This document shows positions 2,259 to 19,019 of a stretch of DNA of 33,237 nt, in pieces (positions within the stretch are counted from its first letter, which is position 1; each line of letters begins with the position of its first letter). The notes under the pieces were generated by a model. It had not been told where the DNA came from. It worked only from the letters and a program-made list of their open reading frames with translations, and searched no databases. The position numbers and the translations under genes are program-made. Location: the NCBI GenBank assembly GCA_020446045.1, contig JAGRFM010000128.1:1-33237 (forward strand). The letters are read 5' to 3'. The stretch comes from Nitrosomonas sp. GTDB taxonomy: Bacteria; Pseudomonadota; Gammaproteobacteria; Burkholderiales; Nitrosomonadaceae.

Positions 2259-4880
2259 TTAATCCATTTTTTCTAAACAACGATCTATCGTATGAAACAA
2301 TGTATTCATTTTTACCGGTTTGGTCAGGTAATATGCAAAACCGGCTTCCAGCCCACGTTTTACATCAATATCCATAGCATCGGCTGATAGTCCAACAACC
2401 GGTATATTGCAAGTTTCCGGATCGTTAGTAAGTTCATTTAGAACAGTGTAACCATCTATACCCGGCAAATGTATATCCAGCAGTATAACGTTGGGCTTAA
2501 AACGCCGCGCAAGCTTCAATCCTTCTTCACCGCTGGTTGCAGCTATCAGTTTTAAATGCGATTTTTTTCTCAACATCCCTTCTACAACACGCAAATTAGC
2601 AGGATTATCCTCAATATATAAAATAATGATCTGTTTCGTTTCAACTACGATATTTTCTTCGTCATGTTGTTTAACTTCTACTGTTTTTATTTCATCTGCA
2701 ATTGGCAAATCGAGCCAAAATAAAGAACCTTTTCCTGCATGAACCATACATTCAAAACCCAGCTTGCCACCCATAAGTTCTGCAAGTTGTTTGCAAAGCG
2801 CCAAACCTATACCAGTTCCTTCAACAGATGAATTTTCCGCTCCCAACCTTTCAAACGGCGTAAACAGATTTGCCTGATGTTCTACAGAGATTCCAGGGCC
2901 GGTATCAACAACAGTTATGCGTAAAAAACTGCTGTCTTGTTTACCATAGCAAGAGACTTCTACACTTCCGTTGATGGAATTATATTTGATTGCGTTAGAC
3001 AGCAAATTCACTAGAATCTGCCGTAATCGGGTAGCGTCTGCCATTACATAAACATTAAAGTTGCAATTGCAGACAAAGCGGATTTCCATCTCTTCCATCA
3101 ATGGACGCACAATTTCTGCAGCGGTTTTGACAGCATAATTCACATTGACAGGCTGCAAGAACACTGACATTTTTCCTGATTCAACGCGAGCCAGATCAAG
3201 CAATTCATTAATTAGCTCCAACAAATGATCACCGGCACGATGTATTTCATGGACATATTCATTGATATTCGATGGAAGATCTTCAATTTCCAGTAGCTGG
3301 CTGAAACCAAGAATTGCATTCATCGGTGTTCTGAGTTCGTGACTCATACGCGACAGGAATTCAGATTTAGCCCGATTGGCGCGTTCTGCTTCATCACGCG
3401 CCGTTTTCAATTCTTCAGTACGCTGTTGCACCCGGAATTCAAGTTCGTTATTCAAAATGCGAAGTTCTTCCTGCGTTTTTTTAAGACCGGTAATATCCGT
3501 TATCGAGCCCACCATGCGCAGCGGCTTTCCATCATCATCCCAAACGGCTTCGCCGCGGGACAAAATCCACTTGTAACTGCCATCTTTATGACGCAGACGT
3601 ATTTCAATGCGGAATGGTTCCTTTTTTTTCAAGTGCCGCTCAATAGCCAGTTTGACGGCCTGTTGGTCTTCAGGGTGAATCAATTCAAAAAAACTGGAAT
3701 CGATGTTAGGTAATTCATCATCACGATAACCAACAATCTCTTTCCAGCGCGGAGACAGGTAATCTTCGTGTGTTTCTGGATTCCAGTCCCAGATACCATC
3801 ATGAGTAGCTCTCAAGACCAGACGCATACGCTCGTCACTACTTTTCAGGTCCTTTTCAATCTGATGGAGATACGTGATGTCCTGTATGGTTCCCAATAAT
3901 CTGCTGGGTTTGCCGTCTTCGTCAAACTCTGTTTCACCACGTTCTCTGACATGTTTGATACGGCCGTCTGGCATTAATAACCGGTGCGCCAAATTATAGG
4001 ACTGATGCAATTGTTGTGAATCATTAATAGCCTTATCAACAATTTCTCTGTCTTCAGGATGAATCAAATTCCTAAAAGAATTGTACGATGGAGTGTATTT
4101 TGATGAATCGATTTCAAAAATACGGAAAATTTCATCTGACCAATATAATATTTTATTTTTCAGATCCAATTCCCAATTCCCAATCTGTGCAATGTTTTGT
4201 GCTTCATTCAGTCTTTTGTCATTTTCTTCCAGTAATTTCACAGTTTGTTCTTCGAGAGCAATTTCACGTTGAATTATTCTTAAGTTGTGACGCCATACTG
4301 CAATAGCACCTGCAATAAAGAGTATCGGTAATAAAATCTCTAGCAACCAGATATAAGGTTGTTTATTTTCGATTTCCTGTTGAATTTTCTTCATCGCTAT
4401 TTGATGCAAGCGCTTAAATTGTTGGCTGACAATTTCAATACTTAAATCCTGATTGGCAAGTTCTATGGCAAATTGCAATGGATCCGATTCGTAACGGCGA
4501 TCCAATGCATAAAGCTCATCAATGGCCTGATTTAATCGTTGAGCGACGCCGGACATACTGGGGTCATCAAATTCTCGCTGAAGCTTTAAAAGCGAGTGGC
4601 TGTGTTCAATAATGCGTCTATATTGCATTCTTGCATTACTGGCAAAAGATTGAGTATCTGTGATTTGAACCAATGATATTGATTCTATACCTTTTATTGG
4701 CCTGAGGTTAATAAAAGCTGCATGGATTGATTCTGCATGCAGAATAGATGACAAATGATAATCGTAAAGAATCCGGGTATTGTATTGATTATTTAAATCC
4801 CGCCAAATAAATAGAAAAGTTATCAGTATGATACAAATGAACATACTGAAGATCATTATTATAATTTCTTTCTTAATCAT
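2259..4880 (-). CDS. membrane hybrid sensor histidine kinase (two PAS, HisKA, HATPase, REC)
   Basis: The 873-residue protein is an inner-membrane kinase. Two membrane segments (about 9-26 and 177-196) bracket a helical periplasmic domain of about 150 residues. Two PAS/PAC units follow (about 225-340 and 350-468), each with the HPED and DG(K/R)xxR-type features of PAS_3. A short coiled coil leads into HisKA with SHELRTP, phospho-accepting His514. The ATPase domain shows the N box (Asn629), DTGPG (659-663) and GTGIGL (688-693). The C-terminal receiver has the acidic pair Glu757-Asp758, phospho-acceptor Asp802 and Lys854. There is no output DNA-binding domain, and no separate response regulator or Hpt protein lies in the window. 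The start ATG is only 9 nt after the upstream PhnD-like gene, so they are co-transcribed. The pair probably forms one sensory unit. Confidence 0.93.
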   Translation of the reverse strand: MIKKEIIIMIFSMFICIILITFLFIWRDLNNQYNTRILYDYHLSSILHAESIHAAFINLRPIKGIESISLVQITDTQSFASNARMQYRRIIEHSHSLLKLQREFDDPSMSGVAQRLNQAIDELYALDRRYESDPLQFAIELANQDLSIEIVSQQFKRLHQIAMKKIQQEIENKQPYIWLLEILLPILFIAGAIAVWRHNLRIIQREIALEEQTVKLLEENDKRLNEAQNIAQIGNWELDLKNKILYWSDEIFRIFEIDSSKYTPSYNSFRNLIHPEDREIVDKAINDSQQLHQSYNLAHRLLMPDGRIKHVRERGETEFDEDGKPSRLLGTIQDITYLHQIEKDLKSSDERMRLVLRATHDGIWDWNPETHEDYLSPRWKEIVGYRDDELPNIDSSFFELIHPEDQQAVKLAIERHLKKKEPFRIEIRLRHKDGSYKWILSRGEAVWDDDGKPLRMVGSITDITGLKKTQEELRILNNELEFRVQQRTEELKTARDEAERANRAKSEFLSRMSHELRTPMNAILGFSQLLEIEDLPSNINEYVHEIHRAGDHLLELINELLDLARVESGKMSVFLQPVNVNYAVKTAAEIVRPLMEEMEIRFVCNCNFNVYVMADATRLRQILVNLLSNAIKYNSINGSVEVSCYGKQDSSFLRITVVDTGPGISVEHQANLFTPFERLGAENSSVEGTGIGLALCKQLAELMGGKLGFECMVHAGKGSLFWLDLPIADEIKTVEVKQHDEENIVVETKQIIILYIEDNPANLRVVEGMLRKKSHLKLIAATSGEEGLKLARRFKPNVILLDIHLPGIDGYTVLNELTNDPETCNIPVVGLSADAMDIDVKRGLEAGFAYYLTKPVKMNTLFHTIDRCLEKMD

Positions 4881-4889
4881 GATCCTGAT

Positions 4890-5801
4890 TCATTTTTTCT
4901 GTTCGGCTGGTAGGTTCTGTTCTGAAAGTAAATATCTGGCAGCATGCTGAACATCTATAAAATCATCGATTAAAACTGGCAGGTAACCGCGCGCGCCCTG
5001 CTTTTCCAAGATAATCTTATCAACTGGTGCTGAAATATTCAGTTCTAGAAAGGCATTCTGGAGCTTTGTCTGTAAACTGTCGCTCATACTCGGATGTATA
5101 ACCCAGACATAATTCATATAGGGAGGTGTCTCCCAGATCAACTTCAGCGGCAATTTTTTGTCATGAAGAATATCTTCGGCAATATGGCTATTGACTATCC
5201 CAGCATCTATTTCACCTTTAACAATCTGCGCTAACGTATCATCATGCCCTGAACTGTGGGTTGTCAAAGCGAAGTATTTTTCGGATTCTATGTTTTTCCG
5301 TCGTAAATAGTAACGCGGCATGATATGGCCAGAAGTCGAATAAAAAGGACCAAATGAAACTGCCTTGCCTTTTAAGTCTTTAAGGTCATTTATAGTATTA
5401 TTGTTTTCATGAACGTATATCGATGATGTGAAATGCATATCAATGTCCCGCATTACTAATGGTATTGCACCATACCGCTCATGCGCCAGTATAAATGTCA
5501 CACCCCCCAAATAAGCCAGATCAATCTCCCCTTTTCCAAATTGATGAACCAGGGATTTGTAATCCGGACTGTCTACCCACTGGCAAGTAATATCAATCTT
5601 GTTGCAAATACTTTCAATCAATTGAACATGTTGTTCGCGAACCGCTTCTGATGAGCGATCAGGTAATGCGCTGACATTGATCGTTTGTGGTTTCTCGGTG
5701 AAATCGTTGCCACATCCGATGAGAAAAAGAAAAAAAATAATCCAAAGTCGTTGGGGATGCACTATATTTTCTAATCTTGTTTTGGATATAGACAGGTACA
5801 T
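4890..5801 (-). CDS. PhnD-type periplasmic substrate-binding lipoprotein
   Basis: The 303-residue protein matches the phosphate/phosphite/phosphonate-type binding family (PhnD-like). Features include an early strand ending in SALPDRSSEAV, FGKGEIDLAYLGGVTF, DLKDLKGKAVSFGPFYSTSG and a later GEIDAGIV. A lipobox (FLIGC) puts the lipidated Cys at residue 30, so it should be tethered in the periplasm. No ABC permease or ATPase gene is nearby. It is followed within 9 nt by a membrane hybrid kinase. PhnD-like proteins paired with or fused to kinases usually act as ligand sensors, so a sensory role is more likely than import. The ligand is unknown and could be an oxyanion. The start ATG has a weak ribosome binding site, but there is no better internal start before the lipobox. 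Confidence 0.85.
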   Translation of the reverse strand: MYLSISKTRLENIVHPQRLWIIFFLFLIGCGNDFTEKPQTINVSALPDRSSEAVREQHVQLIESICNKIDITCQWVDSPDYKSLVHQFGKGEIDLAYLGGVTFILAHERYGAIPLVMRDIDMHFTSSIYVHENNNTINDLKDLKGKAVSFGPFYSTSGHIMPRYYLRRKNIESEKYFALTTHSSGHDDTLAQIVKGEIDAGIVNSHIAEDILHDKKLPLKLIWETPPYMNYVWVIHPSMSDSLQTKLQNAFLELNISAPVDKIILEKQGARGYLPVLIDDFIDVQHAARYLLSEQNLPAEQKK

Positions 5802-5935: not shown

Positions 5936-6355
5936 TTAAAATATCACTTCTAGCGCTTGTCGCAGAGACTCTGCCGTTTGTGGTGAATAAATTACACGCA
6001 GATTTTGTCCCGTAGATGAATAAAATATTAACGCAGTCGGCATAAATCCGCTGCTATTGGCAAATGCTCTTCCTTCAGGAGTGTTAATGTCAGCCACGAC
6101 AAACTCCAGGCGTGCTGCATACTCATTTCTGATTTGATTCATGACTACCATGGTCTCGCCGCTTTGGAGAATGTTATCGTCATGGACTAAAACCAGTACA
6201 GGGATTCCTTTTCCTATTACCGAAGTATCACCGGAAAAACCTCGTGGTAGAAGTGAAACCGCAAAAATGATAATGATCAAAACCAAACCCAGTGTAATCA
6301 ATTTTGGCAACTTGCTTTGTTTGATAACGGGTTTGCTTAAGTGCTGTCTTTGCAT
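5936..6355 (-). CDS. membrane-anchored thioredoxin-fold protein lacking the CXXC motif
   Basis: The 139-residue protein has one N-terminal membrane segment (LITLGLVLIIIIFAVSLL, about 20-38) and a thioredoxin-like domain facing the periplasm. Recognisable elements are the first strand PVLVLVHDD, the strand LEFVVADINTPEG, the cis-Pro loop FMPTALIFY and the closing helix. At the position of WCGPC it has HDDNILQSGE, with no cysteine, so it cannot be a dithiol oxidoreductase and is more likely a binding or scaffolding member. The frame starts at a GTG at 6358, but the ATG at 6355 is adjacent and preferred. A TATAAT box sits 23 nt upstream. It lies between the oxidase block and the sensor pair. Confidence 0.7.
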   Translation of the reverse strand: MQRQHLSKPVIKQSKLPKLITLGLVLIIIIFAVSLLPRGFSGDTSVIGKGIPVLVLVHDDNILQSGETMVVMNQIRNEYAARLEFVVADINTPEGRAFANSSGFMPTALIFYSSTGQNLRVIYSPQTAESLRQALEVIF

Positions 6356-6377
6356 CACGGTGGCCTTTAAAGTCTTA

Positions 6378-6490: not shown

Positions 6491-7450
6491 TCAATCTCTT
6501 CGACGTAATCGATCGGCAATAATATTTCCATCGGTATCCAAACGACCACGAAGCTGTACATAATCACCAAGGTTGGGGGATTTTTTAATACGTGTATTTC
6601 CGGTTATTTTGAACGGCAGATTACCATCGAGATTCCACCGTGCCGTATACCGCCCATGCAGGCGTATTTTTGCGTCGGTCGGGATGGTTGCTTTTAGCCC
6701 ATCTTCGTCACGGGCGCCCTGCTCGACCCATTTTTCAATTAAACTCGTCTCATCATCATTCAAATACGGCGGTCCGTCGAGTGGCATGCGTGGAAGCGAT
6801 TGACCGCGAATGCGGCGGATTAATTCACTGGCTGCCGGATTACCGGGTACTATGCGTGCTCGATCATTGGCACTCAATATATTTTGATAGTTGTCCATCA
6901 GATAATTTTCGGGCGGTGAACCCATTATGCCATTAGGACTATGGCATTTCATACATCGCATTATGAAAATAGATTTAACGTCGTCAAAAGTCACCTGACC
7001 GGAATCTGCAGTTTGTTTCCGGGTGCTTATACCCGCATCAAGTGTGGTTGATGCGGTGGTATTAGTGCTGTCTAAATTATCTTCAACAATCGAATCTAAA
7101 GCGCCCTGGTTGATCCACTGCGCAATCAGTTCAGTCTGGTCATTACTTAGAAATGGTGGTCCCGTTAAAGGCATACGTGGCTGACTGGTTCCCTTGATGC
7201 GTTTATACAGCTCACTATTCTCGGCTTCGCCGGGAATGATAACAACGCCATTGTTTCCGCCTTTTATAAGGTTTTGATAGGTTTCCATCTGAAACCCATT
7301 GGAAGCACCCGGGCCAGCATGACAGAGAATACAACGCTCGTTGAAAATCGGCGCGACATTCTGATAACGAATCGTTTCAGCTAAAGTATATTGCGGGAGG
7401 AAAAGGAAAAAACCGGCGAAAATAATAAAAGCGATATGTGTTTTATTCAT
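6491..7450 (-). CDS. periplasmic protein with two c-type heme sites (PSD1-like domains) and a DUF5666-like tail
   Basis: The 319-residue protein has a Sec signal ending near residue 24 (QYTLA). Two repeated cytochrome units follow. The first has CILCH (Cys40, Cys43, His44) with candidate axial Met93 in RMPLTGPP. The second has CMKCH (Cys166, Cys169, His170) with Met222 in RMPLDGPP. The PRMPL(T/D)GPP(F/Y)L and LI.(Q/K)W(I/V).QGA endings are repeated, as in planctomycete-type (PSCyt1) cytochromes. Residues about 263-319 look like a DUF5666-type beta domain (VQLRGRLDTDGNIIADRL). I chose the ATG at 7450, which overlaps the previous gene's stop by 8 nt. An in-frame ATG at 7456 is an alternative. 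It is the last gene of the oxidase block and could accept or relay electrons. Confidence 0.85.
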   Translation of the reverse strand: MNKTHIAFIIFAGFFLFLPQYTLAETIRYQNVAPIFNERCILCHAGPGASNGFQMETYQNLIKGGNNGVVIIPGEAENSELYKRIKGTSQPRMPLTGPPFLSNDQTELIAQWINQGALDSIVEDNLDSTNTTASTTLDAGISTRKQTADSGQVTFDDVKSIFIMRCMKCHSPNGIMGSPPENYLMDNYQNILSANDRARIVPGNPAASELIRRIRGQSLPRMPLDGPPYLNDDETSLIEKWVEQGARDEDGLKATIPTDAKIRLHGRYTARWNLDGNLPFKITGNTRIKKSPNLGDYVQLRGRLDTDGNIIADRLRRRD

Positions 7451-8813
7451 AATCATGTATAAAAACCGTATCCGATAAAGATTCAGGATCAAGCCTGCCG
7501 TTTAGTTTGAAACCGTCGCCCCATTCCAGATACAATGGCGCCCCATCATTTTTTGCCAAATCACTGCTGCTCAGGTTTACCAAAAACGTGCAGGCTGCAC
7601 TTGTCCAGACATCAACCGGCGATAGCCACTGACCATCATCGTCTCTCGGTTTATAAGGATAGGCAACGCGCCAGCTAAAGCTGGGATCAGCATCCTGCGT
7701 AAAGAAAAATACGGGAACGAGCATCTGTATATCCGGATTTAACTCAAATCGTTCAAATGATTGATTCATCGCGGTGGGCGTAAGCCATATGGCCGCTATC
7801 TTAAAATCCTGCTGATCATTTTTTTGCACATGCGTGAGAACAGCCATATTCAAACGTTCCGCTTCATGCAATACGATTTCATTCAGTCGGACACTCAATT
7901 CATCTGCGAGATTATGAATAATGCGGATATGCGTATAGTCTTCTCTATGGATAGACCTCATCAAGGCTTTAAGTTGCGATTGCAGTCCAGGAAAATAAAA
8001 ATGCCATTGTTTTTCAAATACACCGTCTTTTAAAAGAGGCGGATCAAGAAAAGAGAATGGCAAGGCAGTTGGGATATTGTTTGATCGTATAAATTCAGTG
8101 TATTTATCTTCCCAGCCCATGATAAAGGGCAGTAATACCAATGGATTTGCGCTTCTCTCAATGTAATTTTCAAGTTGTTTCAACGCATCTTCAGGTGTGC
8201 TGAAATAAAGTGTATCGATTGCGGCAATGGGGACACCAACATGCAATGAAGCGCAATCATTGAGTTTTAGAGACAATTCATCCGCGTATTTGCTATGCCC
8301 TGATATAGGTAACAAACTGATAATATTAAAACGCTTTTCTAATGAAGTCGTTTGCTGGTCTATTGCCGACAAATAGGCGATTAAACTGTTTATTTCATCG
8401 TCTGCCAGATCGAAGCGCGGCATGGCGGGATCAAGTTGCCTGCCGTCGGCCGAGTAGCCGCTGCGTATGGCTTTGGTAAATGAGAAAATATCGTAAGATT
8501 TTCCCGCTCCAGCAGCACGCCTCGATGGGAAAGGATTATTCAGGCGGGACCAACGGATATCCGGTGCGACAATAAAAGCTTCACCACCGCCACGTGCGTC
8601 CTGCCCATGGCACCCAGAACAGGCAATTGCAGCACCGGATAACGGAAGACCATGTAATGTCGCGCCAATGGCTCTACCATCCCGGCCAATACCCGATTCA
8701 AAAATGGATTGCCCCAGTGCAACTGAATCACGCGTAAATTCTTCAGTATTTGAACCTGACGCATTAGCATGTACATACCAGAAAAACAAAAATAGACCAA
8801 TCCACCGAATCAT
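7443..8813 (-). CDS. cytochrome c fused to a periplasmic-binding-like domain
   Basis: The 456-residue protein carries a signal peptide (MIRWIGLFLFFWYVHANA). A class I-like cytochrome c domain spans about 30-152, with CSGCH (Cys65, Cys68, His69), a Gly-rich GQDARGGG after it and candidate axial Met131 in DPAMPRFDLADDEI. From about residue 160 to the end the sequence resembles a type 1 periplasmic-binding fold (ligand-binding protein of the Leu/Ile/Val or ABC type). It contains FNIISLLPISG, PLVLLPFIMGWE, a strand-turn IRIIHNLADELSVRLNEIVLHEAERLNM, and a late LSPVDVWTSAACTFLVNLSS. No transporter genes accompany it. The gene starts 9 nt after the SCO gene and its stop overlaps the next gene. A redox centre joined to a ligand-binding domain could be a sensor or a substrate-docking electron carrier. 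The role is inference. Confidence 0.8.
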   Translation of the reverse strand: MIRWIGLFLFFWYVHANASGSNTEEFTRDSVALGQSIFESGIGRDGRAIGATLHGLPLSGAAIACSGCHGQDARGGGEAFIVAPDIRWSRLNNPFPSRRAAGAGKSYDIFSFTKAIRSGYSADGRQLDPAMPRFDLADDEINSLIAYLSAIDQQTTSLEKRFNIISLLPISGHSKYADELSLKLNDCASLHVGVPIAAIDTLYFSTPEDALKQLENYIERSANPLVLLPFIMGWEDKYTEFIRSNNIPTALPFSFLDPPLLKDGVFEKQWHFYFPGLQSQLKALMRSIHREDYTHIRIIHNLADELSVRLNEIVLHEAERLNMAVLTHVQKNDQQDFKIAAIWLTPTAMNQSFERFELNPDIQMLVPVFFFTQDADPSFSWRVAYPYKPRDDDGQWLSPVDVWTSAACTFLVNLSSSDLAKNDGAPLYLEWGDGFKLNGRLDPESLSDTVFIHDYE

Positions 8814-8822
8814 GCCTAACGA

Positions 8823-9437
8823 TCAAAAATGTTCAGCGGTGTTGGAAGCAAGGCGTTTTAAATCTTCAACAACTCTTTCCGGTGGGGAATCGGGGCGCAG
8901 TTTAATCCAATGTGCGTTACGCGCATTGCCTGCTATCAACAAAGTACTGTGATTGTTCGGGTCATCGGTCCATTGACCCAGACGCCCCAGTATTGTAAGC
9001 ATCGTAGTCTTATCAGCGGTTAAAAACCGCCACCCGGGCAGATCGGCATGTTGCTTCTCGGCAAACGCTTTAAGTGCAGACGGATTGTCACGATCAGGGT
9101 CAACGGACAATGAAAGAAAGATATATTCTGAACCAAACTGCTCGCCCAGTTGTTCGCGCACAAACTGCAAACGCTGAGTCTGCAAGGGACAGGCATCTTT
9201 ACAATCGGTAAAAATAACATTGATCAAAACAATATGCTGGCTCAGCAAATCACTGAAAAAACGGTGTGATACGCCGTCCTGATCCGTCAGGCGTTCATCG
9301 CCGAAATAATGGCGCGCACGTTCAATACGTTCATCAGCGGATAGTGTATCTTTTGCAGTGTTACCCGCAGCGTATCCCCAGAAAGGAATCAACAACGAAA
9401 GACTCAACAGGATGCTGCAAAGATTTCTAATAATCAT
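8823..9437 (-). CDS. SCO1/SenC-family copper chaperone (second copy)
   Basis: The 204-residue protein starts with a signal sequence (about 1-24). It has the SCO thioredoxin fold with CKDAC (Cys79, Cys83) and the distal His163 in NNHSTLLIAG, the three ligands that bind Cu in SCO proteins. SLSVDPDRDNP is the usual SCO segment. SCO proteins deliver copper or reduce cysteines during copper-site assembly, classically for the CuA of cytochrome oxidase. No cytochrome oxidase gene is present here, so the client is probably the neighbouring multicopper oxidase (inference). The start is 5 nt after the stop of the first SCO gene. Identity with that copy is low apart from the motifs, so they are not a recent duplication. 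Confidence 0.9.
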   Translation of the reverse strand: MIIRNLCSILLSLSLLIPFWGYAAGNTAKDTLSADERIERARHYFGDERLTDQDGVSHRFFSDLLSQHIVLINVIFTDCKDACPLQTQRLQFVREQLGEQFGSEYIFLSLSVDPDRDNPSALKAFAEKQHADLPGWRFLTADKTTMLTILGRLGQWTDDPNNHSTLLIAGNARNAHWIKLRPDSPPERVVEDLKRLASNTAEHF

Positions 9438-9442
9438 ATCTT

Positions 9443-10015
9443 TTATAATTCATTATATTTAACATGATCAATCGCCTCGACAAGCGCATCCGGGGCTGGA
9501 ATACCCACCCAGCGAAACCATTTTTGATACTTTACATTACCAACCAGGATAACAGGCGGATGATCTTCGGGACGACCTCCCACGGGAATATTAAATGCTT
9601 TCAATACTTGATTGACGCTGGAACGTTTTCCGGTCAGCCAGTGCCAATCCTCGCCTGCCCCGAGCTGCTCTGAAACGGTTTTTAATCTTTCCGGCGTGTC
9701 GTTTAGCGGATCAACCGAGATTGAAATCAAAATGACTTCTTCCCCCAAACGGCTCTGTATCTGTTCCTCTACCGCCTGCATGGTCGCGTTTAGCAACGGA
9801 CAGATGGAATTGCATGTGGTAAAAACGAAGTTGACAATCACGGTACGGTCATCGATTAGTGTTGCTAGCGGTTGAATTTTTCCGTTGCTGTCCTGGAGTG
9901 AAACATCGGGAATAACAACCTGTGTTTCATTGGATTGCCCTGTTTGCTGTGCCGCCACAACATGTATCATTCCAATAACCAGAAGTAAAACAACATAAAT
10001 TAATAATTTTTTCAT
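9443..10015 (-). CDS. SCO1/SenC-family copper chaperone (first copy)
   Basis: The product is 190 residues when started at the ATG at 10015. A GTG directly before it at 10018 is also in frame. An N-terminal signal or anchor (LLIYVVLLLVIGMIHVVA) is followed by PDVSLQDSNGK, typical of SCO. The copper ligands are Cys68 and Cys72 (CNSIC) and His152 (EDHPPVILVG), counted from this ATG. SISVDPLNDTPERL follows the family pattern. It lies 14 nt after the propeller gene and 5 nt before the second SCO gene, all in one minus-strand unit. Two non-identical SCO proteins may divide labour between copper loading and thiol reduction, or serve different copper centres of the giant oxidase. That division is inference. 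Confidence 0.9.
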   Translation of the reverse strand: MKKLLIYVVLLLVIGMIHVVAAQQTGQSNETQVVIPDVSLQDSNGKIQPLATLIDDRTVIVNFVFTTCNSICPLLNATMQAVEEQIQSRLGEEVILISISVDPLNDTPERLKTVSEQLGAGEDWHWLTGKRSSVNQVLKAFNIPVGGRPEDHPPVILVGNVKYQKWFRWVGIPAPDALVEAIDHVKYNEL

Positions 10016-10029
10016 CACAATTCAAAAGT

Positions 10030-11913
10030 TCAGTTCAAATGATTGACCAGAACAGTAGCGTAAACCGCATTTATGGGTTGTTCCCCTTCAACATAAACAT
10101 AATACCCGCCGGTTTGAGACAAAACACCCTCGGCAACCCATTGATTCGCGGTATCAGGATCGTTTTTTAATGGCCAGATTATCGTTCTGCCGCCCTGTGC
10201 GGGAACAATCCGTAAATAAAACAGGTTACCAGGGATATTTTCTGTTTCAAGTTCATCCCCAATTTCCAGACGAAAATTTACCGGATTGCCAACGGCAACC
10301 GTTTGAACACTATCATTCATCCAGCGTGCCTTAACCGCTTCATTTGCAACCGTTTGCTTTGATGTACCGATTTTCAGTCCCAGACATTCACGCACTATCG
10401 GTGCTTCACTAGCCAGCGCCAAAACCATATTCCCTGCTGCCGGCAATCGTATGACTGCTGAATATAGCCCGGGTTTTATTTCACGCAAACCACTCTGCAC
10501 CACCATTGTAGCCATTGGCACATGGCCGTATGTGCGTAAACTGCTGCTCGGTGCATTCATACCTTCCATATAGTAATGCAGCGTGCGTTCAGCAGGATTG
10601 GCAAAAAACGCACCGGATCGATCCAATGTTAAAGCCATACTCGAGGCGCGCAATAGATTTGACGCTTCCGACAGGGACTTGGCGCCTGCTGGAACAAATT
10701 TTAATATTGGTTCGGCATCTTCAAGACTGGATAATGAAACCAGTCCGACAAGTTCGGATTGCAATGTTCTGATATACGCGTATTGTTCTGAAAACAATAC
10801 ATCGTAAGGCTGTCCTGAAATGCTGATGCGATGCTTCTCCTTGCCATTCGCTGTATCAAAAACATGCAGCCAATGCTGACTCGGATTAACCACAAACATA
10901 TACCGTGCATCAGGGCTGAGTCTTGCCGGGCCAAGCCCGGCGTCTAATTGTATCTTGTCTACAGCCGTACCTTGACTATCATAACGATGAATAACACCAT
11001 TTCCGCCGTCAATAATCCAGAGCAATTGCTGCTGATCATCGAAAGTCAGGCTGATCGGTTCGTAATTCAATCGTAATTCACGAACTATTTCCAGCCTGTT
11101 CGCATCAATCAGAGTTACCGTTTTACTTTGCCGGCTACTGGCAAAGACCATACGGTCATCATTTGAAAAAGCAAATTCATGATAGCCCGGTGATAACTGA
11201 ATATCGGCGACCAATACTTTATTCACCGTATCGAAAACAGTAACACGGCTTTGTTCCGGCGCATCGCCGGTCTGGCCGATCCAAAGCAAACGTTCATCCG
11301 GCTGCAAGGCAAGTCGCGTGGGTTTGCCCTGTAACTCGACGGTGTCCAGAATTTGCAGCATTTGCAAATCGGCCACGGCAAGTTTTTTTTCTTCCGGTAA
11401 TGCGACAAAAAGTTCAGCGTCATCGCTGGTTTTGACCCAATCAAAGCCTTTACCCTCAAGCTGCATTGCCGTGTACAAACTGCTGCGCCCGCTGAAACTG
11501 ACTGACGGATCCAGAACCGAAATACTCGGTTCATCATCCAGGCTCAAGACATAATAACCGGTCAGATCGAGCAACGGCCTGTGGACCAGATTACCGCTCA
11601 AATATTGGCCGACACGTTGACCGCAGACTGGCACAGCACCAGACATGACATCTGTTTGACGGTCAAGCCAGGCGCCAATCGGCCAATTACTCAAAGGTTG
11701 ATTGTCCGCGAGACGTTTGCCTTCCAACCAAAGGCGTACCTGCTGTCCGGCTACAGGCACTGCTGGCGCATGATCGTCAACAGCTTCCATACGCAAGTGC
11801 ATACTAATGCCTTCACGCTCAATCATGCGATCAAGATATAACGGAACTTCGGCTTGTGCAGCTATTACAAACAACAACTGCACAAGACCAGCGGCATAAA
11901 TTACAACCTTCAT
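10030..11913 (-). CDS. exported YVTN-type beta-propeller protein
   Basis: The product is 627 residues from the ATG at 11913. An upstream in-frame TTG at 11928 is less likely because the ATG forms an ATGA overlap with the oxidase stop codon, a classic coupling arrangement. The signal peptide ends about residue 21 (FVIAAQA). Residues 22-115 are an unrecognised domain with Cys98 in VPVCGQRVGQYLSG. Residues about 125-400 hold repeated propeller blades (FVALPEEKKLAVADL, LWIGQTGDAPEQSRVTVFDT, VFASSRQSKTVTLIDA, MFVVNPSQHWLHVFDT), as in YVTN/cytochrome-D1-like propellers but with no visible heme motif. The last 150 residues look like a beta-sandwich. Tight coupling to the oxidase suggests a partner, scaffold or electron-transfer platform. 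The function is not known to me. Confidence 0.8.
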   Translation of the reverse strand: MKVVIYAAGLVQLLFVIAAQAEVPLYLDRMIEREGISMHLRMEAVDDHAPAVPVAGQQVRLWLEGKRLADNQPLSNWPIGAWLDRQTDVMSGAVPVCGQRVGQYLSGNLVHRPLLDLTGYYVLSLDDEPSISVLDPSVSFSGRSSLYTAMQLEGKGFDWVKTSDDAELFVALPEEKKLAVADLQMLQILDTVELQGKPTRLALQPDERLLWIGQTGDAPEQSRVTVFDTVNKVLVADIQLSPGYHEFAFSNDDRMVFASSRQSKTVTLIDANRLEIVRELRLNYEPISLTFDDQQQLLWIIDGGNGVIHRYDSQGTAVDKIQLDAGLGPARLSPDARYMFVVNPSQHWLHVFDTANGKEKHRISISGQPYDVLFSEQYAYIRTLQSELVGLVSLSSLEDAEPILKFVPAGAKSLSEASNLLRASSMALTLDRSGAFFANPAERTLHYYMEGMNAPSSSLRTYGHVPMATMVVQSGLREIKPGLYSAVIRLPAAGNMVLALASEAPIVRECLGLKIGTSKQTVANEAVKARWMNDSVQTVAVGNPVNFRLEIGDELETENIPGNLFYLRIVPAQGGRTIIWPLKNDPDTANQWVAEGVLSQTGGYYVYVEGEQPINAVYATVLVNHLN

Positions 11914-14900
11914 CCGGGCAGATCGCAATTGGAACGCAAGCTGCCCAATTCGCCGTCATTAAATTCAGGAGGCGCATCGGTTACTCTCACCAGCGCCCAT
12001 AGCCCATTGGTAATACCGAAACCGGCATGATCGCGCCAGAGATAATCCCCAACTACCTTATACTCACCGCCAGCCTTAGGAAATACCAAATCGAAGTGCG
12101 CCATCGGCGAGATACTTTCCTGCCCACCTAAATGAAAGGCCAGGGCATTATTGCCAATACACTGGGATGCCACACCCCAACTCGATTTGCTGTTACCTCT
12201 TGGGTATCCGTTATCCGTATGTTCAGCCAGATAAGGATCGCGTGGCCAATGATGACCATGCAATTCTCCCGTCGTGGCCCGACCGACACCCGTCGGCATC
12301 AATGCACGAATACGCATTTCCTGCCCCGCATATGTTGTCAGAATAGGCACGTATGGCTCACTGCTTTCCGAATCACCATTGATGACCGTACCAATCTTAC
12401 CTGCGCCATTACTAAATGCTTGCCATGCATTGTCCACCCCTCCCAAGCCGGCTTTGCCGAAATCCGAGTCAGGTGGCAACCCGAAACGGAACCACATCGG
12501 TTCGGTACCGTAATTAATAGCCATATGGCCGGAATCGTGCGCATCTTCAGGTGCTGTTTGCTGTGGATCTTCATTGGCGTCTTCTTTCTCAGCCGCAATG
12601 TTTGGAATGGCCGAGCCATCTTTATAGCGCAGATTCAAGCCTTTTTGATGTACCAGCACCAGATCTCTGAACTGACGGTCTACTGCTTTTCCATCAAAAA
12701 TAACCGGATATTTCACATCGGCCGCCATACGCGTTGTACGCGTGTTGGATTGATCGGAACCTGGATTCTGCCGGTCAATAGCCGTGTCATTTTCTTCCCA
12801 TGTAGCACCTTCGGGTTCGATGACTAACGCACCAATCGCACCTTTCTGACCTTGTTTGATACGATCGGGCGGCGTTAAGTTGCTACCGCCGTATTCAACT
12901 GCAACAAATCGGGCGGGCTCACACTGTTCATTATTTTGCTGGAGAGATACGAGTCGTGTCGTATAAGGGCTGATTGGAAATTCATTGACCAGTTTTGCGT
13001 CAGTCAGACATTCAGCCAAGGTATTAACAATCCGGCCACGGTCGAACAGCAATGTATCAATTTTCGACATATTCGTTCGATCGTCGCCAAAATACTGCAA
13101 ACATGATTGTGGTAATTTACCTGTCAAAATACCCCAGAAATCACTCAATGAATAGAACATGTTATCGAATATACCTTCTTCCAGCATGCGCCATTTATTA
13201 AAGTTATCTTTCAATACCATACCGAAATCAACGTCAGCTTCATTTAATGCCGGATTAAATCTGTATTGATCGAAACTTTCTCCATTAGGCATTTTTTTAT
13301 TTTGATCAAAAATTCTCCGGTTCAAGAAGCTGTAGATATTTCTGTCCAAACTGGCTGCAGTAAATAAGTCAGCAGAAGACAACGGCTCTTTATAAAATAA
13401 AGAAAAATTGTTTAGTGTTTCGTAAGCGCTGTCATCCGTTGACAAACAGGCATTTTCCAATGGCGGCACTTCGATAGTACCGGCGTACCAGGCATAACGT
13501 TTGGACTTACCAGGCGCCACTGTACTCCTTGAATTCAGACCGACATTGTTACCGTCACTGGCCTGCAGATCATAATGCACCAATTGCGGATGCAACCCGA
13601 TATGGTTTGATGGACGGACCAGATTGTTATTGAATGTTGTCGAAGCATGATCGTAATACTCGCTTCGTTCACAATGTGCAGCATCATCATTCGCCGCATT
13701 GCCTAATTCGCTGCAATTACGTGGGATAATGCCGGAAACCGAGGTATATCCATACAAATCCGGCATCTTTGCTGGATTCTCAGGCAATCGATTGGTCATT
13801 GTGATATGGATGCAATCCCCTGCAGCCGCGCGCAGCACAAGCGGTTCAACCGGAGCATCAGGTCTTAATCTGCCGTATTTATCCAAATCTTCATTGTGGA
13901 CGAATAATATTGCCGTCGGATCGTGCAGTGGCCCTGATTTAAATAACTGTGTATCAACCACTTCGCCCTCTTCATTAACGATACGGATACCGATTTCATT
14001 GGGTTGCGGGTTGTATACTAGTGTACCGCCTGATGGATTTAGGTTGGTTCTGGGTGACCACCACTCCCACCATTTACGACTTTCGGATTTCCAACGTGGA
14101 ATCGTTATACCCAGTTCATTTTTTAATACCTTATTGGCCAATACCGCCGAAATATGATAGTACTGAACCGGAGCATCGGCTGGACATACATTATCGATAC
14201 GGCTATGGCTATCGTGTTTGTGTTCATATTTATGATCGTGTACGTGGCTCGGCGCCAGTAATGTCGGAATAGTATTGCTGGCTAATGGCATCAGTCTATG
14301 ATGCAGCGGTGCTCTGTTATAACTGCGCAGCACACCCCAGACACCATTCCATAGCCCATCCTGACTGGTATCCACGGCATACATCCGGTCATTGATACCT
14401 AATGGGCTTTCATAATCAATCAAGTTGGTGGTAAATGTAAACTGCTCCGACAACCCGGCATTTTGCGCATTGCGCCAGCCGGAATGCGGCGCATGCCCAA
14501 AACCAGAACCGCTTTGCAACCATTTCACACCATTAATGGAACCATTATGCTCATGCTCATGTGAGCCCCCCTGAATTTTGACTTTGACATGATCACCTGC
14601 AAACGCTTGCAAAATTGGGGTAAACGGATCGCCATCGAAAATACCCTGTGTCAAAGGATAATATTTGAACGGCGCAGATTTAGCCGCACCTTGTACCGTG
14701 TTTAACGCATCTATTGCCCGGTCAATACGGGTCTGCATGGCGAAAGCCATGTCACCTGCCAATCCCTTGGTCTGTGTGCCCCTTTTACCGTCCGGACCGA
14801 ATGCATGCGGATCATAAACGCGCGCGCCCAGCGGTTCATTACGGTAATTCACCACCATCATCCCGACATCGTCTGCTGAAATACCTTCAGCACAGGGGCG

Positions 14901-17900
14901 CAGAGGCTGCCCTTTTGAATTGTACAACTCAGGATTGGTGAAATCATTTTCTCCATACACTGAACCTGACAGTAAATCGCCACCATCAATCGTTTCTCTA
15001 CCACCCGGACAAGTCGGTTCAAACGCAATAATGTCGGGGAAAACCGGTTGTGCCGGTTTCCTGACCGAAGGGTTGATGGCCAGACGGAAACTGTCATGAG
15101 TCGGTTTTGCCGATTTTTCGGGTGGATTATCCGGATCTTCGTTCATCCAACCCACACCATCTTTACTTACACCATAATAAGCACCTTTGACGTAAGCATG
15201 CTGAAAATCGCCAAATTGCAGGAAAAATTCACGATGTGAATCATCACCTGGCGTACCATCGTAATCTATAGATTCGCCGTCCTTTCCTGAGATGACTGCC
15301 TGCCATGAAGTAGGACCACCGTCTTGACGATTGTCCATATCATACAGTTTGACTTTTTGTCCGGTAACGCTATCGAGCTCATTGTGCCACCATTCCGAAC
15401 CAGGCGGTTCCGTTAACATGGTGGCGTACAATCCGATCTGTTGGTGTGTTGAAGGGCCTAAGTGATCGTGCGTAAACGTCGTACCCAGTCCGCGGTGTAT
15501 GCCGCCTGTGTTGACAATCGGATCCGAGAACCAGCGTTGTAAGGTAGTCCGTGCACCAAACCAGTCACATGCACCCGGCATACCCGAATTTATTTCAAAT
15601 AAACGTGAGACACTGGTATTCCTTGTGTGTACTTCTTCTATCATCTCTTCCCAAAGTGCATCACATGCTGACTCGGATAAATGATAACGATCATCGAGCC
15701 ATCCGCAGTTTTCAGGCATATTCTGTCTGTGTTCGATTAAAGCCTGTACTTCAAGCTCGTTATTTCTCTTATTAATTTCTGCCAGATCAATCGCCTGATG
15801 CCAATCCGATTGACAATTCTCTACTGAAAACTGATATTCACAGTCTTCGTCATTTGCACATATAGAATCAGTGTTACCTTCCTCGTATCCCTTGAAATAA
15901 GGATGCGCAACAGGCATTAATGCTTCATTCTCATTCAAGGCATTGATTGCTGCTATCCGTTCGCGCACCATACCGGGTGAAAATGTTCCATCTTCGTAGT
16001 TCCAGCCGTTTGCACCACCGTCAGCTGAAGTCAAATCCCATTTCGGGAGATGGATATGTTGACCGATAACATCGGTAGGTGTAGTGATTTGATAGTCATC
16101 GCCGTAAAAATAATGCGGTACCAAATTGGTATGTGCATACATCGCACAGTCGAATGTATTCATACGCATAACCAACGGCTCCGGTGGTTTCTCGTATTTT
16201 AACAATGGCCCGACATCTTCCCATAAAGTCAAAATACGTTGTTGCGGATAGTGATAACCAATCTTGTTGAATACAACGTCTAATTGTAAATTCGCGCCTT
16301 TATAGACACGCGGATTTCCTGCACCAAATTCAATGCCGCCTGGGAGAACGGAAAAAACATCAAAATACCCGTCTTCGTCATAGGTTGCACCAAAAAACTC
16401 TGCATTTCCACCCCAAGCAAGCAGCATTCCTTTATCATCTATACATGGTTCGTTAAACGGTGCGCCTGGCACAGGCTCTGCTCCATTTGTTTCAAAGTAA
16501 GCGGATGACATCGAGCCATCCATATTCACAGCGTATGTCTGCCGTTCTCCTCTGGGTTTAGCATGATATTCCATAGCCAGTCGTTCAAGGCTCGTACCCT
16601 CTTCCGGAAAATAAATCGGGCTGGCCTTTTCCAGATGCTTTTCCGCCGTAAATCGACTAATCAAGGATTTTGCCTTTCCACCTGTGGAAAATCCTGCCAT
16701 CGCATGTCTAGTTAGCCCTCCATCGTGGCCTTTGACAATACCTGGAATCTCACTCATGTCCAGCGGTGGTGTTGTAGGCCGTGAACCAACTGATGAAGAA
16801 TAAGTTATACCTCCATCACTATGCTCGGTAACACCGGCAACCCAGAATGGGTATCCTGGATTTTTTGTTTGATCATTAAATGGATTAACCAATTCCGCTT
16901 TAGATCCTAATCCATTTTCTTTATGGGTGACATGAACCGGTTCTGGCATAGGCGCCATGCCTTTACCCGGTAACGGGACTATGGCCGGTATCGGTGTCCC
17001 TGCAACGATTTCACCATCAGGTAATGCACGACTGTTTGCAGCTGGTTTGCCATGTTGCAGTGCAAATGGTTGGTCATGAAAGCCTGTGTCTGTTTGACTA
17101 ACAGCAAGCGGCGTACCTGCTTCAAATACATCGTGATTGCGCCACATATACCACATGCCTTGAGCGAAATGCGGATAAAAATGGCAGTGAAAAATGGCGT
17201 CGCCCACTGTTTTATTACGGTTTCCCGAACCGCCGAATGCGATTTCATAGGTATATCCCGACCCCGGTCCCAGACCTTGAGCATCAATATAATTGGAATT
17301 GTCATCATTCGGATTGAACAACCACTGATGATTGTGTAAGTGAAAAATATGTTGCTCCTTTCCGGAATGCATATTACGGAATTTAACGAAATCTCCGATG
17401 TAACTGTGGTGCACATTGGATGGATCATACGGATAATAAGCCTCTGTTGCTTTTTGATCCGATGGTTGAACACAAAAATTCTCGCGTTCTGCTTGATACC
17501 GTGGATCAAGCACTTCAATTTCCTCGTCTGGATTTAATGGATTGGGTATTTTAACTTTCGCAACAAATTCGGGTTGGCATTGGCTCGTCACCAGATTTGC
17601 CGGTTTGTCTACCAACATGGCTGAGTCACCGACCGCAAAAGCCGACAAGAAAAATTCCTCATACGCGCAATCCAGACAATCCTGCATCGGTCCTGCCTGC
17701 AAACGGTTAGCAATAATTTCCGAACCGATACCTCCAGAACCATAGTTAATCATGAACGAATCACGTACACCATGCAGCGTATGTTTTAATTCCGGGTGCT
17801 CAAAGAAATAGGGAAAAGCCTGTGTTGCTGCATTCTCATCGTGGAATATGGAAACAAATTCACGAAAAGGTTCCAAACGGTTTGGAAGCGTGGGATTACG

Positions 17901-19019
17901 TTTTCCAATTGATTCGAGTGGATAAGTATCACTGGGGAAAGCGCCATCATCATTAGGACCAATAATTAACGCATTGATATCACCGTGGATAATGCGATTG
18001 CCCTGAACCATATTTAGCACCGGCTTGCCAGCCTTGCCTTCCTTATTCCAGATACAGTCACTTTCAGTCTCTTTACATTCATAAATGGCTTCATAATTTA
18101 TTATGGGTTGCCCACTTCGTGTAATTCCAGTAGTTGCTAAACGCATTTCTTCTTCGGTTACCTGTGCGCGGTAAAAACGTGCGCCTTTCGGTTGCACCGT
18201 TACAGCACCGAACAGGCCAACCCCGCTGTTTCCAGCCGTGCCTTCTCCACCGAAAACTGCGCCATCGTTACTGACTAAGAATGCGCCTTCTACAGGTGCA
18301 TAAAAACAATATTCTCTGGTCTCACCAGGTCTGGCCAAGCTGTTTGGATTTTGACCGACGTATGAACTGTCATCGTTAATACTACGAACCAATTCCAGGC
18401 CTTGCGGATGAAAGCCGACGGTACGACTGGCGACTTGGTCATCTAATCGGAAAATTATTTTAGGATTTCCTTCCGCATCAAGTTCTCCCTCAATATCTTT
18501 GGGTCCACGTTCTGTTGGATGATCAATATTTAGTAATGGATCAAATGAATTGAATGGATTCGCATAATTGGGTGGCGCATCCCCATAATGATTCAACTTG
18601 TGATGCAACAAATTGGTAAAACGTACTTTTAGATGTTCTCCCGCTGCCACGCGTAATACCAACGGGCGGGGCCGCAAATCGGGACGCAAGGCGATATTCC
18701 GGCTTGTATGCCGGCGTTTGACCGCTTCAAACAGCGCTTCGCCTTCTGCGGTGTAATCCAAAGTTTTGTATGCATCAGGATTAGAAATATCAACGATATC
18801 ATGCCGTAACGCATACATCATCCAGTTTACATTTTGCGCCCCCAGACGGTTGAAAATCATGGGGTGATCAATTGCAACCACATCGGCTTCCAGTGCATCT
18901 GATGGACAAACCGAATGCACCGCCATCTCCACTTCCGTCTCCGTCTCTGCTTTAACTATTCCTACCGCAAGACCTATTAGAAGTAGTATCGTAATTTTGA
19001 TAAACGCCCGAATGTTCAT
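11910..19019 (-). CDS. giant secreted multicopper oxidase, MofA/MnxG (manganese-oxidase-like) type
   Basis: The product is 2369 residues from the ATG at 19019, which has AGGGGA 7 nt upstream and opens a signal peptide (NIRAFIKITILLLIGLAVGIVKA). An upstream in-frame GTG at 19097 is disfavoured. Copper motifs are His204 (FHPQG), H560-L-H-N-H564, a canonical HCHxxxHxxxxM at 611-622 (Cys612, Met622), H988-I-H990, H1184-D-H1186 with His1192, H1487-E-H-E-H1491, His1810, H2254-G-H-H2257, His2308 and His2331. GQHIHLPKW...NGWNYEDGTFSPG and TTFTHDHLGPSTHQQIGLYA are phrases I associate with MofA/MnxG-like proteins linked to Mn(II) oxidation. The sequence is three tandem versions of one cupredoxin unit (PLVLR/PLVMR at about 116, 945, 1724). 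A His-rich loop lies near 1590-1603. Known relatives are shorter (about 1200-1900). The substrate is unproven: Mn(II), Fe(II), Cu(I) or an organic reductant are all possible. Confidence 0.92.
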   Translation of the reverse strand: MNIRAFIKITILLLIGLAVGIVKAETETEVEMAVHSVCPSDALEADVVAIDHPMIFNRLGAQNVNWMMYALRHDIVDISNPDAYKTLDYTAEGEALFEAVKRRHTSRNIALRPDLRPRPLVLRVAAGEHLKVRFTNLLHHKLNHYGDAPPNYANPFNSFDPLLNIDHPTERGPKDIEGELDAEGNPKIIFRLDDQVASRTVGFHPQGLELVRSINDDSSYVGQNPNSLARPGETREYCFYAPVEGAFLVSNDGAVFGGEGTAGNSGVGLFGAVTVQPKGARFYRAQVTEEEMRLATTGITRSGQPIINYEAIYECKETESDCIWNKEGKAGKPVLNMVQGNRIIHGDINALIIGPNDDGAFPSDTYPLESIGKRNPTLPNRLEPFREFVSIFHDENAATQAFPYFFEHPELKHTLHGVRDSFMINYGSGGIGSEIIANRLQAGPMQDCLDCAYEEFFLSAFAVGDSAMLVDKPANLVTSQCQPEFVAKVKIPNPLNPDEEIEVLDPRYQAERENFCVQPSDQKATEAYYPYDPSNVHHSYIGDFVKFRNMHSGKEQHIFHLHNHQWLFNPNDDNSNYIDAQGLGPGSGYTYEIAFGGSGNRNKTVGDAIFHCHFYPHFAQGMWYMWRNHDVFEAGTPLAVSQTDTGFHDQPFALQHGKPAANSRALPDGEIVAGTPIPAIVPLPGKGMAPMPEPVHVTHKENGLGSKAELVNPFNDQTKNPGYPFWVAGVTEHSDGGITYSSSVGSRPTTPPLDMSEIPGIVKGHDGGLTRHAMAGFSTGGKAKSLISRFTAEKHLEKASPIYFPEEGTSLERLAMEYHAKPRGERQTYAVNMDGSMSSAYFETNGAEPVPGAPFNEPCIDDKGMLLAWGGNAEFFGATYDEDGYFDVFSVLPGGIEFGAGNPRVYKGANLQLDVVFNKIGYHYPQQRILTLWEDVGPLLKYEKPPEPLVMRMNTFDCAMYAHTNLVPHYFYGDDYQITTPTDVIGQHIHLPKWDLTSADGGANGWNYEDGTFSPGMVRERIAAINALNENEALMPVAHPYFKGYEEGNTDSICANDEDCEYQFSVENCQSDWHQAIDLAEINKRNNELEVQALIEHRQNMPENCGWLDDRYHLSESACDALWEEMIEEVHTRNTSVSRLFEINSGMPGACDWFGARTTLQRWFSDPIVNTGGIHRGLGTTFTHDHLGPSTHQQIGLYATMLTEPPGSEWWHNELDSVTGQKVKLYDMDNRQDGGPTSWQAVISGKDGESIDYDGTPGDDSHREFFLQFGDFQHAYVKGAYYGVSKDGVGWMNEDPDNPPEKSAKPTHDSFRLAINPSVRKPAQPVFPDIIAFEPTCPGGRETIDGGDLLSGSVYGENDFTNPELYNSKGQPLRPCAEGISADDVGMMVVNYRNEPLGARVYDPHAFGPDGKRGTQTKGLAGDMAFAMQTRIDRAIDALNTVQGAAKSAPFKYYPLTQGIFDGDPFTPILQAFAGDHVKVKIQGGSHEHEHNGSINGVKWLQSGSGFGHAPHSGWRNAQNAGLSEQFTFTTNLIDYESPLGINDRMYAVDTSQDGLWNGVWGVLRSYNRAPLHHRLMPLASNTIPTLLAPSHVHDHKYEHKHDSHSRIDNVCPADAPVQYYHISAVLANKVLKNELGITIPRWKSESRKWWEWWSPRTNLNPSGGTLVYNPQPNEIGIRIVNEEGEVVDTQLFKSGPLHDPTAILFVHNEDLDKYGRLRPDAPVEPLVLRAAAGDCIHITMTNRLPENPAKMPDLYGYTSVSGIIPRNCSELGNAANDDAAHCERSEYYDHASTTFNNNLVRPSNHIGLHPQLVHYDLQASDGNNVGLNSRSTVAPGKSKRYAWYAGTIEVPPLENACLSTDDSAYETLNNFSLFYKEPLSSADLFTAASLDRNIYSFLNRRIFDQNKKMPNGESFDQYRFNPALNEADVDFGMVLKDNFNKWRMLEEGIFDNMFYSLSDFWGILTGKLPQSCLQYFGDDRTNMSKIDTLLFDRGRIVNTLAECLTDAKLVNEFPISPYTTRLVSLQQNNEQCEPARFVAVEYGGSNLTPPDRIKQGQKGAIGALVIEPEGATWEENDTAIDRQNPGSDQSNTRTTRMAADVKYPVIFDGKAVDRQFRDLVLVHQKGLNLRYKDGSAIPNIAAEKEDANEDPQQTAPEDAHDSGHMAINYGTEPMWFRFGLPPDSDFGKAGLGGVDNAWQAFSNGAGKIGTVINGDSESSEPYVPILTTYAGQEMRIRALMPTGVGRATTGELHGHHWPRDPYLAEHTDNGYPRGNSKSSWGVASQCIGNNALAFHLGGQESISPMAHFDLVFPKAGGEYKVVGDYLWRDHAGFGITNGLWALVRVTDAPPEFNDGELGSLRSNCDLPG

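Follow-up and report, generated by a model that had tools for sequence, protein, structure and literature searches.

An MnxG-type multicopper oxidase operon in Nitrosomonas, with a candidate role in manganese oxidation

Do ammonia-oxidizing bacteria of the Nitrosomonas group also oxidize manganese? In water filters the removal of ammonium and the removal of manganese are linked for reasons that are unclear, and metagenome-assembled genomes (MAGs) of Nitrospira from a filter encode MnxG (PMC12070406). Putative manganese oxidases (MoxA, MnxG, McoA) have been listed in nitrifier MAGs and published genomes, Nitrosomonadaceae included, without demonstration of activity (PMC11995701). The question is raised again by a 33,237-nucleotide contig of Nitrosomonas sp. 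(JAGRFM010000128.1, assembly GCA_020446045.1; the whole stretch is called here the window), in which six open reading frames (ORFs), none with an internal stop, lie on the minus strand between positions 6491 and 19019. The first five form an operon that is real, well conserved and mostly known already; the addition made by this locus is an ammonia-oxidizer genus as host of the complete set. As judged by homology, this Nitrosomonas copy of an MnxG-type operon probably encodes an Mn(II) oxidase that is exported, loaded with copper and linked to O2. One named carrier in which the question could be addressed is Nitrosomonas sp. JL21, in whose record the operon is found.

A conserved five-gene set

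The order oxidase, propeller, SCO, SCO, cytochrome fusion, all on one strand, was found in all 13 named loci that could be tested: six from Nitrosomonas, two from Lysobacter, and one each from Nitrospira, Methylomonas, Xanthomonas, Lysobacterales and an unplaced gammaproteobacterium. Seventeen loci had been named; L024, L034 and L036 were too short for the test, and L025 stops inside the propeller gene. The most diverged of the 13 is L035, and in L028 the fusion was matched in part only (query residues 33-204). A further genome (G061, locus L046) has the same order. Such constancy indicates that the grouping is not due to chance.

A similar operon has been described in Pseudomonas putida GB-1, where the putative mnxG operon comprises mnxG, a YVTN propeller gene, two consecutive SCO1/SenC genes, a gene for a substrate-binding protein with a cytochrome c domain, and a SurA gene (PMC11409713). 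Compared by product name, its first five genes are those of the Nitrosomonas set, in the same order; the oxidase here is longer (2369 aa versus the 1894 positions of the family model). A like operon is present in Pseudomonas OF001 (PMC8218464), and a putative mnxG operon is also reported for strains DSV-1 and MS-1. The first-pass annotation, made from the sequence of the window, had not recognized the six genes as a described system. That view is superseded for five of them, and the idea of a previously undescribed system was rejected because the GB-1 operon is already published. As far as our searches reach, the novelty lies in the anatomy of the operon in Nitrosomonas, of which no description was found in the searchable literature (most subscription papers and all of bioRxiv were outside its scope), and in the additional di-heme gene. 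The presence of the whole five-gene operon in Nitrosomonas and in at least one Nitrospira, rather than of a lone oxidase, gives the claim that nitrifiers oxidize manganese a sharper and more readily tested form.

The six genes of the window are as follows:

11910..19019, minus strand: giant multicopper oxidase of the MnxG type, 2369 amino acids (aa) from the ATG at 19019, with a signal-peptide-like N-terminus.
10030..11913, minus strand: beta-propeller protein, predicted to be exported, 627 aa; its gene and the oxidase gene share 4 nt.
9443..10015, minus strand: SCO copper chaperone 1 (Pfam SCO1-SenC, 5.5e-17), with CxxxCP and His motifs.
8823..9437, minus strand: SCO copper chaperone 2 (Pfam SCO1-SenC, 1e-14), with CxxxCP and His motifs.
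7443..8813, minus strand: fusion of a mono-heme cytochrome c domain and a type I (LivJ-like) periplasmic-binding domain, 456 aa.
6491..7450, minus strand: di-heme PSCyt1 cytochrome, an accessory gene, 319 aa from the ATG at 7450.

When the most probable ATG starts are used, the junctions from the oxidase to the di-heme gene measure -4, 14, 5, 9 and -8 nt, in agreement with the tight packing (gaps of 14 nt or less, or overlaps) noted at first reading; the domains found likewise match the gene types named then. Export signals had been assigned to all six proteins, and a hydrophobic N-terminal stretch is indeed present in 6/6 (best 12-residue mean Kyte-Doolittle hydropathy, 1.72 to 3.24), and one or more positive charges lie before or at its start. 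Hydropathy is a rough proxy for export: three window proteins assumed to be cytosolic gave 1.43, -0.05 and -0.92, and the weakest case, the cytochrome/binding-domain protein, has a value of 1.72, close to the highest of these controls.

The propeller protein is of the cytochrome-D1/YVTN type, with a Pfam Cytochrom_D1 match over the cut-off (2.8e-9) and an NCBIfam TIGR03866 match under it (4.9e-19), and its gene follows the oxidase gene in all 14 named loci with DNA at that place. For each SCO gene, the CxxxC pair and a later histidine are kept across 19 aligned proteins, four loci that have only one SCO gene being counted in both sets. In the fusion, a Pfam Cytochrom_C match (1.6e-4) is over the cut-off, and the CXXCH heme site is invariant in 13/13 aligned proteins (L028 and L046 were left out). 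The C-terminal half adopts a type I periplasmic-binding fold in the predicted structure (mean predicted local distance difference test score, 74.9), and the best Foldseek hit of the model is 4q6b, an ABC substrate-binding protein (E 9.6e-8, query template modelling score 0.46). The heme part is poorly modelled, with block means of 36-52 over residues 51-100.

When 125 genomes of the family were searched, any oxidase match was found in 33, many of them short or partial, and the long type was found in eight. Six of the seven long-oxidase genomes of the same genus other than that of the window are the same DNA as named Nitrosomonas records, their stretches lying entirely within L021, L026, L027, L030, L033 and L037. 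Propeller matches occurred in 14/125 genomes. They were strong (58-62%, or self) in the eight long-oxidase genomes, weak (25-29%) in G021, G036, G041, G054 and G074, and marginal in G015. The fusion was matched in 25/125: strongly (43-47%, or self) in the same eight genomes and weakly in 17, mostly to the heme domain. A 74-residue C-terminal piece of the fusion in G028, a genome that is 66% complete, may mark a further, broken-up carrier of the set. The expectation that the six genes keep together across genomes thus holds for the five core genes, which are not scattered, and fails for the sixth, which is not conserved.

Other arrangements are also detected. In G021, G041, G054 and G074 a shorter oxidase occurs together with a single SCO, a cytochrome-domain gene and a propeller of diverged sequence; G036 contains fragments of this set; and in three inspected genomes (G014, G067 and G084) the oxidase lacks propeller, SCO and cytochrome neighbours. 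With full set, reduced set and lone oxidase all found, the number of related arrangements in the genus is at least three. In the Nitrosomonas-group loci L042-L045 and L047-L049 the MnxG-like oxidases are of the shorter kind, with 1767-2062 residues, some with the reduced propeller-SCO-cytochrome set and some alone.

The Pfam model of ammonia monooxygenase A was matched in four of nine genus genomes tested and not in G000, G031, G049, G068 or G086. We take this non-detection, without proof, as loss in draft assemblies.

The oxidase and its probable substrate

Family and domain scans were run on the 2395-residue reading of the oxidase that begins at a GTG. No Pfam match was obtained at E 0.1, and the sole NCBIfam match at E up to 0.1 was MnxG (NF041487, 2021.8 bits), with most of the 1894-position model covered in five pieces (4-590, 634-952, 976-1134, 1141-1606 and 1626-1894). 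The best sequence match in the PDB is Bacillus MnxG (9bxa, E 8.5e-64), in an alignment that spans HxxHxH, HCH, HIH and HDH copper motifs. A tree of 24 oxidases places the window sequence within a Nitrosomonas group of eight (support 99), next to which stands Methylomonas (87), followed by Xanthomonadaceae-type and Nitrospira sequences; the tree was built by a quick method without bootstrap, and several rows have unusual composition. The sole family match, the copper motifs aligned with 9bxa and the supported grouping with the long oxidases of Nitrosomonas together support assignment to the MnxG type.

The histidines and the cysteine of the four copper motifs (HxxHxH, HCHxxxH, HxH, HxH) are kept in 24/24 aligned oxidases, the window's included (L024 and L036 gave no row), while an additional histidine, in the THDH block, is missing from L034, L044 and L047-L049. 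By its motifs, therefore, the protein is a multicopper oxidase with a trinuclear O2 site, and copper binding is predicted. In enzymes of this class, electrons travel from type 1 copper to a trinuclear cluster and on to O2. Since all four motifs are present, electrons should reach O2 within the enzyme.

A plausible scheme can be drawn on this basis. The oxidase would be exported and supplied with copper by the two SCO proteins, and the propeller and the cytochrome c/binding-domain protein may aid its assembly, docking or electron handling. Mn(II) would give single electrons to type 1 copper; these would pass through the protein to the trinuclear cluster, where O2 would be reduced to water, and Mn(III/IV) oxide would be left outside the cell. 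The choice of Mn(II) as substrate is supported by the match between the five-gene list and the GB-1 mnxG operon, in which deletion of mnxG makes manganese removal about 10 times slower and double deletion of mnxG and mcoA abolishes oxide formation (PMC11930936).

Several observations weigh against this interpretation. The score of 2021.8 bits is below the NF041487 equivalog cut-off of 3100, as is that of the Xanthomonas relative (2112.5 bits), so that the function need not equal that of the MnxG equivalog; for this reason we term the oxidase a homologue of the MnxG kind and not an equivalog. The comparison with Pseudomonas relied on the family model and on the product names in the literature rather than on sequence. 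The sixth gene encodes a SurA-domain protein in GB-1 and a di-heme cytochrome here. An operon of the GB-1 type would have a sigma-54 promoter and MnxS/MnxR control. Sigma-54 control is described for GB-1 (PMC11930936), and no sigma-54 consensus match within 2 mismatches was found upstream of the oxidase gene; matches to the pattern in the window are at chance level (37 versus 37.1 expected). Lastly, manganese oxidation has not been shown in any of the nitrifier families listed, Nitrosomonadaceae included (PMC11995701).

The same family score leaves room for another substrate. The operon might oxidize Cu(I), Fe(II) or some other periplasmic or surface substrate as a defense against copper or iron, manganese oxidation being absent or incidental. 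Two SCO genes represent an investment in copper handling, and substrate promiscuity has been noted for the multicopper oxidases of nitrifiers (PMC11995701). However, what matches the operon of an experimentally tested manganese oxidase is the whole five-gene set and not the oxidase alone, and we consider the copper or iron alternative unlikely.

The Bacillus Mnx complex is not known to have SCO or cytochrome partners. Its MnxG resembles the oxidase studied here in the alignment of its copper motifs (9bxa); however, it is about half as long (1227 aa) and carries HCHxxxA in place of the canonical HCHxxxH. Bacterial MnxG-like proteins have been described as six-domain (PMC3600357). The mof operon of Leptothrix discophora (mofA-mofB-mofC) shares with the window a giant multicopper oxidase gene and a cytochrome c gene, and the cytochrome c and periplasmic-binding domains of MofC-like proteins resemble those of the fusion; in contrast, the isomerase MofB lacks a counterpart here, and the text available mentions neither a propeller nor a SCO pair for mof (PMC5566968). 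The ompB cluster of Geobacter sulfurreducens combines a multicopper oxidase, a distant mofC homologue and a SCO gene; however, OmpB is needed for Fe(III) oxide reduction, and a propeller is not mentioned in the same excerpt (PMC5566968).

In the phylum at large, NF041487 matched four genomes of a 398-genome sample, that of the window and G074 among them, none of them over the cut-off; the model matched 0/14 control genomes, hence this search lacks a positive control. Two ORFs antiparallel to the oxidase gene, on the plus strand (12132-12827, 231 aa; 13699-14157, 152 aa), are probably an effect of composition.

The di-heme gene and the path of electrons

The sixth gene encodes a protein with two CXXCH sites, a Pfam PSCyt1 match in two stretches (2.8e-18) and, in its tail, a sub-threshold DUF5666 match. 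None of the 25 loci retrieved gave a match to it; four of these stop short of its position. Among 124 other family genomes, the search yielded one 42-residue match (E 6.7e-4) and none of full length; in a sample of 300 genomes of the order, 17 gave any match, the window's own included, and a full-length one (45% identity) was found only in G290. When the translations of the 8.7-kb contig of G290 were read by eye, pilin-like ORFs were seen and no oxidase ORF was recognized. At the position after the fusion, the next ORF lies on the opposite strand in 7/13 loci; five of the six same-strand ORFs were scanned, with matches to TonB, an acetyltransferase and a 2-hydroxyacid dehydrogenase and two ORFs without a family, none of them SurA. 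These flanking ORFs were called mechanically, a procedure that is unreliable in the GC-rich Lysobacter loci. Membership of the operon core was thus rejected for the di-heme gene, which adjoins the five genes and is not conserved in the loci compared. In the PDB, the top hit of the di-heme protein is the Fe(II) oxidase FoxE, a weak match (E 0.003) that was not used.

The first-pass annotation had correctly recognized a copper oxidase of manganese-oxidase type in the constant company of copper chaperones and a cytochrome protein, and the constant core order bears this out. It had gone on to propose that Mn(II) or another extracellular reductant gives its electrons to the cytochromes, which would pass them into respiration, so that energy is conserved and electrons do not go directly to O2. 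That the cytochrome fusion belongs to the conserved core and that a di-heme cytochrome gene follows it in the window genome would fit this proposal. Cytochrome c maturation genes matter for manganese oxidation in P. putida MnB1 (PMC11409713), an effect that could, however, be indirect, and use of a poised electrode in the absence of O2 has been suggested for Nitrosomonas communis (PMC10415592). Against respiratory wiring stand the ligand motifs of type 1 copper and of the O2-reducing trinuclear cluster, which are present in the oxidase, and the failure to find the di-heme gene in the 25 compared loci; bypass of O2 is accordingly not upheld, and we regard it as very improbable. A Pfam scan limited to 19 window proteins revealed no outer-membrane porin with multiheme cytochromes. 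Slimmer still is the chance that the di-heme cytochrome and the fusion draw electrons off the MnxG oxidase or Mn(II) itself into the respiratory chain, with energy gained from manganese, in which case an ammonia oxidizer would have manganese as a second electron source.

Neighboring genes

Just downstream of the operon, the minus strand encodes a PhnD-like periplasmic-binding protein (4890-5801), 9 nt ahead of the gene for a PAS hybrid histidine kinase with a receiver domain (2259-4880, minus strand). The two are a possible sensor pair. In L030 and L033 a PAS hybrid kinase is encoded on the upstream side of the oxidase, and a kinase match was obtained in L035; the mcoA operon of GB-1 includes a phosphonate-type binding protein (PMC11409713).

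A 140-residue protein (5936-6358, minus strand) has a hydrophobic N-terminal stretch and matches neither Pfam nor NCBIfam at E 0.1; its sequence reads like a thioredoxin fold devoid of CxxC. The gene upstream of the oxidase encodes a short-chain dehydrogenase on the opposite strand, and the corresponding place in two Nitrosomonas loci (L021:8767-9636 and L026:8976-9833, just upstream of the oxidase) is occupied by two proteins that resemble each other on visual comparison and have no Pfam match. Near the start of the window, an FMP-type heme-binding protein is encoded on the plus strand (217-1248; NF040572, 293.3 bits against a cut-off of 150).

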